From Acidimicrobiales bacterium (GTDB taxonomy: Bacteria > Actinomycetota > Acidimicrobiia > Acidimicrobiales > DATDAH01), in NCBI GenBank assembly GCA_016794585.1, contig JAEUJM010000009.1, positions 1-64,000 on the forward strand: DNA of 64,000 nucleotides, read 5' to 3'. The notes under the pieces were generated by a model that saw only the letters and a program-made list of their open reading frames with translations, had not been told where the DNA came from and did no database searches. The translations under genes and the position numbers were made by a program. This document shows positions 3,557-39,929 of the stretch, piece after piece (the first letter of the stretch is position 1; each line of letters starts with the position of its first letter).

Positions 3557-3694
3557 GGCGGGACGTTCTCATCGAGAATCGAAGCAGGCTCACAGCAGGC
3601 CGCCGTGCGGCAGCACGCGCCGGCGCGCTCTGACCCTGCGACGGTGGTCGCCCTGCGACACCCATCTCCGCAGGCGTCGATCTCCCGGTACTGG

Positions 3695-4351
3695 TCATGC
3701 TGTGTAGCGGCCGGGGTCGGACGCGAATGCTCCTGCGCACTCGAGTGAGCAGAACATGTGCTCGTGATCGTCGTGGCGAAGGCGGCCCGGCGCCGATCGG
3801 CGGTCGACGGCCATGTGGCAGACCGGATCGATGACCCGGTCCGGCACCGTGGGGCACGCCATGACCTCGTAGAGCGCCACCGGTTCTCGGACGTTGCGGA
3901 GCCGTTCGATCCCGAGCGGTCGGGTCTCGAACCCGGCAGTCGATGCAACTGCGGCGACTCCTTCGGTCGCCAACACCTGGTCACCAGCGGCGCGTGCCGC
4001 CACCCTCGCGGCGAGGTTCACCGCGCCGCCGAACCAGTCGCCGTCTCGTTCGAGCGCGGGGCCGGTGTGGAGTCCGGCGCGCAAGACCGGGAAGGCCGGC
4101 TCCTGGTCCAATGCGGAACAGATGGCGCCGACGGCTCTGACCGCGTCGACTGGATCTGTCGAGACGAGCATCACCGCATCACCGATGGACTTCACCAGCT
4201 GATCCGTCGAACCCAACGCTGCCTGGGTGACTTCCACCAGGCGATGTGCGAGCTCCACTGCCGCGAAATCGCCGTGCACCTCGGTCGCGAGGGTGAAGCC
4301 GGCGAGGTCGACGAACGCGAACGTCCGATGCTGTGACGGGGGAGTGGTCAT
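3695..4351 (-). CDS. Class III adenylate/guanylate cyclase fused to a YHS metal-binding domain
   Basis: A 218-residue cytoplasmic protein with two parts. Residues 8-165 are a class III nucleotide cyclase catalytic domain: metal aspartates Asp15 (FVDLAGFT) and Asp58 (KSIGDAVML), with Asn112 and Arg116 in GAVNLAARVAAR for transition-state binding, so it looks catalytically competent. Residues 172-218 form a YHS-type domain (DPVCHMAV, then FCSLECAGAF) with Cys178, Cys201 and Cys205 as likely metal ligands. YHS domains are common in heavy-metal ATPases and mercury/copper proteins. The ATG at 4351 overlaps the CPBP protease stop by four bases (ATGA). I infer a metal-sensing cyclase; the cyclic nucleotide made and the metal bound are unknown. 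Confidence 0.85.
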   Translation of the reverse strand: MTTPPSQHRTFAFVDLAGFTLATEVHGDFAAVELAHRLVEVTQAALGSTDQLVKSIGDAVMLVSTDPVDAVRAVGAICSALDQEPAFPVLRAGLHTGPALERDGDWFGGAVNLAARVAARAAGDQVLATEGVAAVASTAGFETRPLGIERLRNVREPVALYEVMACPTVPDRVIDPVCHMAVDRRSAPGRLRHDDHEHMFCSLECAGAFASDPGRYTA

Positions 4352-36516: not shown

Positions 36517-37311
36517 TCACGGATCAGGCGTCGGCGGGGTGGGCCGCCGCCGCGAGCGGGTGGTGAGGTCGTCGATGAGGGAGAGAGCCTGGTCGAGACT
36601 CTCCGGGAGGCCTTCGATCCACAGTTGGGTGCGCACAGGAGATGCCTCGTCGCATACGAGGTCTGGCTCGACCCGTTCGGTGAGACTGGCGAGCGCCGCC
36701 CCGACGGCGGGGGTGTCGGCAACGAGGACGATGAAGGTGCCCGGGCCGACGCTGGCGATGGTCTCGCCCCCGTCGAACACCACCCGGAGCCGTTCGGCGA
36801 CCCGCACGGCCAGAAGGGACCGGTGGGGTTCGCGGAGGCTCTCGAGCGGGAGCCGCACGACGACGAGGCTGTGGACGTCAGCGGCACCGAGACCGATCGA
36901 GTCGCAGTGTTGATAGGTCTGGGTCAGGCGCGCCCGAAGGAATGCCTCCGTGGCGCACCCGGTGAGCGGCTCGACGCAGCCCATGTCCCGAGTGGCCTCG
37001 GCGAAGCCGTGGACCCACCCGCGGGCGACCTCGAGGGTGTCGAGGCGGTCGAGGCGGACACGTCGGGCCGGATCGACGACGTCGTAGAGGCAGTGGAGGT
37101 CCTCGATCACCTCGTCGAGGGTGAACCCGTTGCTGGCTCGGATCGCACCCAGTCGAGCCAGGGCGGGCCCCGGCTCGGTGAACCCGCCGTCGAGGGCTTC
37201 CGCCAGCGCCTCGACGGCGGGGTGGAGCCAGTCGTCACGCGAGACACCGACACGGCGGCGTGCTTCGCCCAACCACGCCTCCACGATGCTCAACGTCCGG
37301 ATCCGGCTCAC
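36517..37311 (-). CDS. Degenerate GGDEF-like regulatory protein
   Basis: A 264-residue cytoplasmic protein. The C-terminal part has the strand/helix pattern of a diguanylate cyclase domain (HSLVVVRLPLESL, LLAVRVAERLRVVFDGGE, IASVGPGTFIVLVADTP), but no GGDEF or equivalent active-site loop is present where expected. It is thus at most a non-catalytic binding or interaction domain. The N-terminal half is helical. It is divergent from the sigma-factor fusion gene, with 96 bases between. The role is unknown. Confidence 0.55.
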   Translation of the reverse strand: MSRIRTLSIVEAWLGEARRRVGVSRDDWLHPAVEALAEALDGGFTEPGPALARLGAIRASNGFTLDEVIEDLHCLYDVVDPARRVRLDRLDTLEVARGWVHGFAEATRDMGCVEPLTGCATEAFLRARLTQTYQHCDSIGLGAADVHSLVVVRLPLESLREPHRSLLAVRVAERLRVVFDGGETIASVGPGTFIVLVADTPAVGAALASLTERVEPDLVCDEASPVRTQLWIEGLPESLDQALSLIDDLTTRSRRRPTPPTPDP

Positions 37312-37407
37312 ATCGGGCTGAGACAGCGGGGGCCCGTCGTCATGACGCCGCGTGTGATCTGTCTGGTACTCCGTGAGACGTGAACGCCTGTCGTCGTCGG
37401 GGCGGAG

Positions 37408-39929
37408 GTGACCGAGGTCGCGTCAGGGGACGCCGAGCTGTTGGCCCGCGTACGGGCCGGGGATCACGCTGCGTTCGGGCTCCTGTACGAGCGCCACCGC
37501 GCCGCGGCGAGGAGCGTCGCCCGCGGCCTGACCCGGGGGGCCGGCGACGCCGAGGACCTGGTGAGCGAGTCGTTCACGAGGGTGTTGTGCGTCATCGAGC
37601 GGGGCAAGGGCCCAGCGGTCGCCTTCCGCCCCTACCTCCTGACGGCGATGCGGCGGATCCACTGGGAGCGCACGAGAGTCGCCGAGCGAGAGCGCCCGAC
37701 CGATCTGACGGCGGACGTGCACCTCGGAGACCTCTTCATCGATCCTGCGCTCGACGGTCTCGAAGGCACCCTGGCCGTCGAGGCCTTCAAGCGGTTGCCC
37801 GAACGCTGGCGCATGGTGCTGTGGCACACCCAGGTCGAGCAGCTCGAGCCCGCAGAAGTCGCACCGCTGCTCGGCATCAGCCCCAACGCGGTCGCCGCAC
37901 TCGCCTACCGGGCGCGCGAAGCGCTGCGCCGCGCGTATCTCGAGGCGCACGTCGGGCGTGGCACCCACGACGAGGTCTGTCACCACGTGTGCCAGCTGTT
38001 GCCTGCCAAGGTGCGTGGCGGTCTGTCCGCCACCGGAATCGCGACCGTCGACCGCCATCTGAGCATCTGTGACGATTGCCGTGCCTTCCACGCCGAGCTC
38101 TCCGCCGTCAATGCGGGCATGCGCTCGTTCGTGGGACCTGCGGTGCTCGGCCTCGCTGCGGCCGACTACCTCCGTGCGCCGGCTCTGGAGGCCACCTCCC
38201 CCGCCACGACACCGTCCGCCCGCAAGGTGAGGAGGCGCCCACCGCGTCGACTCGCGCTTGCCGCTGGTACCACGGTCGCCGTCTTGGTGGTCGCCGCGCT
38301 CGCCCGTGCCCAGGTGGTCGATCGTGGCGAGGAGCCCCGCGCCGCGACCACGGGAGCGACCGCCACCCCGGTGGTCCCGGTCGACCCGAGGGCGAGTGGA
38401 TCCGACCATGGCGCCGCAGGGGACTCGTCGAGCACCACCAGCGGCCCAGCAGCGGTGGTGTCTGCGCACACGGTCACCCGTCTGCCGCCGGGAGCACCCG
38501 GTTCGACATCGCCGGCCGAACCCGCGCTGGTACCGGTGCCGGTCACGCCCGGCGACCCCGGGGTGCCCACGACCTCCACGCTGCCGACGACGACGACGGT
38601 GCCCTTCGTGGCCCGCGCCGACCTGGCCGTGGAGGCCGAGCCGGTGGGCGTGCTCGTGGCCGGACGCGACGGCATGATCGCGGTCACGGTCGCCAACCGC
38701 GGACCGGATGCAGCCGCTTCGCTCCACCTGGCCGTCGAGCTTCCCGCCCAGCTCACCTTCGTCTCCGCGTCCGGCGCGTCGTGGCGCTGCGGCCCGGACG
38801 CAGAGGGGGCGACCTGCGAGCGCGATCGGCTGGTCGCGGGCGCCGACCAGGTCCTCTACCTGCGACTCCACGCGGCATCCCCGGCAACCGACGAGATTGT
38901 CGCGGCCGTCACCCTCAGCTCCGCGGGCCCGCACCGTGCCCAGGGGTCGACACGCGCCACGTTGCCGGTGCCGATCGCCGAGCACGGGATGTCCGCGGTG
39001 TACGCAGACGAGCGTGTCGGTGACATCGCCGTGATCGGCAACAACCTGTCGAGTTGTCCCGACGCCGCAGGCGCTGCGTGCCTCGGCGCCCGTGATCGCG
39101 TCGGAGCCGACCTCGACAACAACGACTGGGCGGTGGCTCCCGTCGACGCCGACGCCGACACCACGACCTCGTCCTCCAGCGCGGCGACGCTCGCCCGGCC
39201 GGCGGGGGCGGAGGTGGCCTGGGCCAGGCTCTACTGGGGTGGGGACACGGCGGCCGGCGTCGGCGGTGCCGCCGCCGACGTCCCGTCCTCGCGGGCACGA
39301 TCCGCTTCGCGACGCCGTCCGGTGGCGACTACCACGTCGTGACCGCGGACCACGTCGAGGACCGGGGCAGCCGCTACCAGAGCGCGGCCGACGTCACCGC
39401 CCTCGTGGCCGCGGCGGGTGACGGGCGCTACTGGGTCGCGGGCATCCAGGCCGGCACGGGTCGAGACCGTTATGCCGGTTGGAGCCTGGTGGTGGTCTTC
39501 GACGCCCCCACCGGCCCCGTGCGGCGGCTCGTGGTCTTCGACGGTCTCGCGGTGGTCGATCCCGCGCATCCGGCGCGTTTCGAGGTCGGGGGCTTCCGCG
39601 CCCCGACGGCCGGGCCGTCGGACGCCACCTTGAGCATTCTCGCCTATGAGGGTGACCCCACCCTCATAGGGGACAACGTCAGCGTCGATGGCCAGCGACT
39701 GACCGATTCCCGCAATCCCGACGACAACCTCCTCAACAGCACCCTGTCGCACCTGGGGGCCTCGCCCGCCGGCCGCTTGCCAGACCACTCGAACACGTTC
39801 GGTGTCGACATCGACGCCTTCGGTATCGGATCTCTGCTCACCCCTGGGGCCCGCACGGCGACCCTGGACCTCGCCTCCGCCGGCGACACCTACCTCCCCG
39901 GAGTCCTCGCCGTCTCCGTCGCTCGCTAG
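37408..39929 (+). pseudogene. ECF-like sigma factor fused to zinc-finger anti-sigma, membrane helix and DUF11-type ectodomain; one frameshift
   Basis: The first frame (37408-39342) encodes sigma region 2 (about 10-62) and region 4 (about 126-178, ISPNAVAALAYRAREALRR). A zinc-binding anti-sigma motif follows (His217, Cys221, Cys224 in DRHLSICDDC), then a membrane helix (281-300), a Pro/Thr-rich linker with TTSTLPTTTTVPF, and a DUF11-like domain (about 415-525). After about 39285 the frame shifts: adding one base (CCCG-TCC) continues as LAGTIRFATPSGGDYHVV into 39339-39929. Restored length is about 840 residues. One lost base in otherwise well-kept sequence means a recent mutation or an assembly error. 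The design suggests a sigma factor permanently tethered to its own sensor. Confidence 0.75.

Follow-up and report, generated by a model that had tools for sequence, protein, structure and literature searches.

Domain organization of the fusion protein

The window analyzed here is a stretch of 64,000 nucleotides from an Acidimicrobiales bacterium whose genome assembly comprises 5.49 Mb in 51 contigs. An open reading frame on its forward strand (37408–39342) encodes, as read, 644 residues that join a sigma factor, a zinc anti-sigma domain, a membrane helix, and an ectodomain before the frame is cut by a frameshift. By Pfam, sigma-70 region 2 was assigned to residues 26–83 (37483–37656, +; PF04542 Sigma70_r2, E = 4.7e-8), region 4 to residues 125–173 (37780–37926, +; PF08281 Sigma70_r4_2, E = 5e-8), a zf-HC2 zinc anti-sigma domain to residues 191–225 (37978–38082, +; PF13490, E = 2e-5), and a DUF11 domain to residues 419–505 (38662–38922, +; PF01345, E = 2.2e-6), with all four matches above the curated Pfam cut-offs. 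Regions 2 and 4 are the only sigma-70 regions (Pfam, with TIGR02937 above its cut-off), which makes the protein an extracytoplasmic function (ECF) sigma factor. The Hx3Cx2C motif that a preliminary description had read from the letters is HLSICDDC, comprising H217, C221, and C224; together with an upstream zinc ligand, C191, these residues are invariant in an alignment of 64 sequences. The sigma/anti-sigma part was modeled by AlphaFold2 with a pTM of 0.41, so that any docking of the two in cis is putative.

A single membrane helix is predicted at about residues 281–303 (38245–38313, +) from the hydropathy maximum, with the N-terminus predicted to lie inside; the basic stretch RKVRRRPPRR precedes it. 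An extracellular linker rich in proline, threonine, and alanine follows (38314–38622, +), which includes the TTTTVPF sequence (38587–38607) and is the segment least conserved relative to a paralogue in the same genome (51% identity). Beyond the DUF11 domain lies a C-terminal ectodomain, the first half of which is in frame (38965–39291, +) as judged by alignment to the paralogue and other homologues. Its resemblance is to DUF3344 (PF11824), for which a scan of the paralogue gave 22.5 bits against a cut-off of 27.2, so that the domain is similar to this family and by that rule not a member of it.

A frameshift confined to the window copy

The paralogue, L002, is encoded on another contig as 852 residues in one uninterrupted frame and is 66% identical to the window protein over 626 residues. 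When L002 was aligned to the window by tblastn, it matched in two pieces: one in frame +3 with 64% identity up to ARLYW, and one in frame +2 running from GTIRFATP to the stop codon at 39927–39929 with 69% identity over 212 residues. Because the two pieces lie one frame apart, the window copy has lost one base, as had been proposed; the proposed position of 39285 gives way to one about 8 bases downstream, since the codons CGC GGC ACC of the paralogue correspond to CGGGCACG in the window, which places the loss at 39291–39295 (+). The shift splits the conserved C-terminal domain midway. Its second half and stop codon (39294–39929, +) are out of frame with the start, so that the protein as read lacks its last 211 residues, in keeping with the earlier view that the late frameshift would truncate the sensing part. 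In all, the chain from sigma regions through TTTTVPF linker and DUF11 unit to a further C-terminal domain was located as described, with the second half of the last domain one frame away, and L002 reads through the whole arrangement in one frame.

The same C-terminal domain extends to the stop codon in about 30 homologues, and an end equivalent to 39342 was found in none; the uninterrupted versions that were sought in the family therefore include the paralogue and these homologues, and the base loss belongs to this copy only, possibly as a sequencing error. Measured against the paralogue, dN and dS were 0.204 and 0.652 after the shift and 0.230 and 0.643 just before it. The resulting dN/dS of about 0.31 after and 0.36 before indicates about equal constraint on both sides, and thus that selection acts on the segment after the shift or did so until very recently, which leaves a sequencing error or a very recent mutation.

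We give about an even chance to a mere error of sequencing or assembly, with the gene intact like its paralogue: besides the near-equal dN/dS and the homologues that carry the domain intact, no stop interrupts the second frame before its natural end at 39926, and the lost base sits in a G+C-rich run, although copies do decay in this genome, as exemplified by a small remnant beside a transposase gene (C24:15642). Only a little short of even, in our estimate, is the chance of a real and recent frameshift that breaks the outer domain; the protein would then be degraded, always off, or always on. The assembled frame does stop at 39342, within the conserved domain, and two related intact copies remain, so that a loss would be tolerable, but relaxed selection is not seen in the downstream codons. 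Programmed frameshifting that joins the two frames would account for the conservation in both, but the site has no slippery heptamer and the relatives have a single frame; we rejected it as highly improbable.

Homologous fusions in Actinobacteria

Relatives of the fusion are present in 18 other genomes of the same order and are encoded in at least 519 stretches of named genomes, the best 80 of which provided the homologue statistics given here. These 80 come from Nocardiopsis, Streptosporangiales, Demequina, Cellulomonas, Nocardioides, Actinomadura, Acidimicrobiales, and others. The Hx3CxxC motif occurs at the same place in all 80, and nearly all those with a complete open reading frame have a hydropathy maximum near the same place as the membrane helix. 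Fusion is thus the rule; the shortest complete frame encodes 429 residues, so no bare sigma factor is among them, and the combination of a bare sigma factor and a separate anti-sigma gene was found in none of the 80. Other homologues carry Ig-like, cadherin-like, or CARDB modules as ectodomains. No carbohydrate-binding domain was detected by Pfam in the 20 homologues scanned, and the window protein and its paralogue have DUF11 and the weak DUF3344 match.

Two further loci in the source genome were noted. A more distant ECF sigma factor (L004, G000:C12:706) has a long C-terminal extension and a hydrophobic helix, but zf-HC2 gave no match to it. The remnant mentioned above (L242, G000:C24:12000-20000, at about 3643–3801) comprises 53 residues that are 91% identical to the C-terminus of the paralogue, directly adjoins the transposase gene (L242 2266–3555), and is probably what an insertion has left of another sigma-fusion copy.

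A divergent pseudo-GGDEF partner

Directly upstream of the fusion and divergent from it is a gene of 264 codons (36517–37311, −) whose product falls below detection for any Pfam domain. Its AlphaFold2 model (pLDDT 92) was searched with Foldseek, which returned 47 matches with E ≤ 1e-3 to GGDEF domains or GGDEF-bearing proteins, while the GG(D/E)EF motif was found at the equivalent position in none of 60 members of the family. On the basis of the model, we describe the protein as a pseudo-GGDEF protein, with the predicted GGDEF fold and without the active-site motif.

The partner is a conserved companion of the sigma fusions. With a profile built from six members, it was found to adjoin 64 of the 80 homologous fusions, nearly always divergently and directly upstream; in the remaining 16, no recognizable partner lies within the stretch examined. 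The source genome has four close copies of it, all beside its three sigma fusions, including the third paralogue (L003), where the partner is co-oriented and lacks the promoter described below. In the reverse direction, we inspected partner matches with E < 1e-10 from searches of the class and the phylum: the best matches elsewhere in the class (G221, G147, G110, and G264) adjoin a sigma fusion, as does the best one in the phylum (G665), and the next weaker match (G253, E = 3e-10) does not. The phylum-wide search found the partner in only three genomes, probably an undercount, with six candidates scored per genome. Other arrangements were noted: beside one fusion are two in tandem, each with a promoter (L041, 8592 and 10864), and upstream of the fusions in L172, L174, and L175 are partner frames of 476–609 residues in which at least two partner-like stretches were matched.

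A conserved promoter and a small candidate regulon

Between the two genes lies an exact match to an ECF-type promoter facing the partner, GCGTCAT-N16-TGTCTCA (37319–37348, −), with the GTG start codon of the partner about 6–7 nt behind it. This element is conserved across loci in the form GCGTCAT-N16-(N)GTCTCA: of 70 regions upstream of partner genes, 39 have it with two mismatches or fewer, compared with 0.15 in shuffles, and the start codon stands 5–7 nt behind it in 29 of the 39, as in leaderless transcripts. Pattern searches of the source genome with the core GCGTCAT-N16-TGTC gave four occurrences, all in sigma-fusion modules; three of them precede partner genes, and the fourth precedes an RCC1-repeat gene adjoining the paralogue. 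In 19 other genomes, the pattern GCGTCATN{16,18}TCTCA gave 42 matches, between 1 and 4 in each genome, versus a single match for a reversed-pattern control; the spacing is the same in 40 of the 42.

Genes other than the partner also lie behind such promoters. Among them are those for an RsbW-like ATPase and for LRV-repeat proteins in Demequina; some of the other matches will be due to chance. In three relatives (L206, L224, and L233), EAL-domain proteins begin 6 nt behind the promoter, hinting at a link to cyclic-di-GMP signaling. The RCC1-repeat gene (L041, 7104–8294, −), which lies between the paralogue and its partner and has its own GCGTCAT-N16-TGTCTCA promoter, is a candidate member of the regulon.

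A similar element with three mismatches, TCGTCAT-N16-TGTCTGG (37337–37366, +), faces the sigma gene and shares the GTCATGAC center with the partner promoter, and TCGTCAG-N16-TGTCTCG precedes the sigma gene of the paralogue. Judging from these sequences, autoregulation is possible. Both close paralogues have the element, which occurs in 7 of 101 regions examined against 0.4 expected and is therefore not general in the family.

Proposed model of a tethered sigma factor with a narrow regulon

These observations are consistent with a model, which we consider likely as a whole, of a tethered sigma factor inhibited in cis, released by proteolysis, and serving a small regulon, chiefly the partner promoter. 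The zinc anti-sigma domain in the same chain would keep the ECF sigma factor inactive, the one predicted helix would anchor it in the membrane, and the adhesin-like ectodomain (DUF11 and the DUF3344-like module) would serve as the sensor. On a signal there, the protein would be cleaved, probably first by a site-1 and afterwards by a site-2 protease, and the freed sigma piece would recognize GCGTCAT-N16-(N)GTCTC promoters. Its chief target would be the divergent pseudo-GGDEF partner, which the window sigma factor probably controls, with at most a few other genes, such as those for EAL-domain proteins in some relatives and the RCC1-repeat gene beside the paralogue. The partner itself may act as a feedback regulator or as an effector.

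A site-2 protease family member is present in the source genome; as such proteases occurred in all 14 control genomes, its presence says little. Release by proteolysis is expected for fused membrane ECF sigma factors and has been demonstrated for the fused sigma factor IutY, yet ECF41 sigma factors with fused domains are driven by conformational change (PMC8999054). We regard it as quite unlikely that the window protein is a membrane-bound switch that works through a change of shape in its anti-sigma domain without cleavage. The partner promoter could also be used by another sigma factor, with the partner acting on the fused sigma factor, as its sensor or regulator, in place of being its target. 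The operon-like co-orientation of partner and sigma genes in L003 and in L172, L174, and L175 favors such an arrangement, but the −10 element of the promoter is of the ECF type (GTC) and each genome has only a few occurrences of the promoter, at sigma-fusion modules; we therefore rate it a minority reading, and retain proteolytic release of a sigma factor that acts on its neighbor.

Taken more broadly, the data tentatively suggest a widespread actinobacterial module in which a tethered ECF–anti-sigma fusion has a dedicated partner, a catalytically dead GGDEF-fold protein transcribed from the sigma factor's own leaderless promoter, with the partner feeding back on the sigma factor or linking it to cyclic-di-GMP signaling; the latter link is included because the promoter also precedes EAL genes in several relatives. 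The fusion architecture and the idea of proteolytic release are already known. What is new here is the conserved divergent partner and its conserved promoter, the more novel part of the locus, which the preliminary description overlooked, as it did the fact that the architecture is of a known kind and that the frameshift is peculiar to this copy and may be a sequencing error. Our literature search found no paper on a GGDEF partner of ECF sigma factors, with an earlier mention in the main ECF classification being possible. To our knowledge, sigma factors that carry a membrane anti-sigma domain in the same chain are known but have hardly been studied: few targets and no ligand are on record, and the promoter motifs conflict. 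The family now gains a candidate promoter exact enough for a single reporter test, together with a regulon predicted to be very small and a conserved partner whose GGDEF fold is dead. Should the partner act on the sigma factor, a degenerate nucleotide-signaling domain would have a new route to the control of transcription.

Comparison with known systems

The ECF48, ECF52, and ECF53 groups of Actinobacteria share the fused layout and are expected to be released by proteolysis (PMC8999054), which had previously been proposed for ECF52 sigma factors in a study of SCO4117 from Streptomyces coelicolor, the first characterized ECF52 member (PMC5826349). Like SCO4117, the window protein is actinobacterial and combines an ECF sigma factor, zf-HC2, a membrane helix, a proline-rich extension, and an ectodomain in one chain (PMC5826349). 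Its ectodomain consists of DUF11 and a DUF3344-like module, whereas that of ECF52 is a carbohydrate-binding module, and we therefore do not place it in ECF52. SCO4117 adjoins atrA and the window fusion adjoins the pseudo-GGDEF gene; moreover, the motif suggested for SCO4117, CSGY-N17-SRHA, is unlike GCGTCAT-N16-(N)GTCTCA. ECF48 and ECF53 are similar by description: in these actinobacterial groups, a zinc finger and one or two membrane helices are fused to the ECF sigma factor (PMC8999054). In Pseudomonas putida, IutY (ECF243) likewise combines a sigma factor with a membrane anti-sigma part in one chain and is released by Prc and RseP (PMC8999054), but it belongs to proteobacterial iron-starvation cell-surface signaling with aerobactin as the signal.

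The C-terminal half of the partner shares the predicted fold of GGDEF domains (diguanylate cyclases), including that of FimX (Foldseek TM-score of 0.68 by target length), and differs from them in lacking the motif at the equivalent position in all 60 members and in falling below Pfam detection. For the module as a whole, the ECF41 sigma factors differ in having a soluble, SnoaL-like extension and enzymes as neighbors in place of a GGDEF-fold protein. They nevertheless resemble the window sigma factor in their fused regulatory extension and in a narrow regulon, mainly the neighbor gene, controlled from a promoter of similar layout, TGTCACA-N16-CGTC, with a −35 element of TGTCACA, a 16-bp spacer, and a −10 element of CGTC (PMC3426412).
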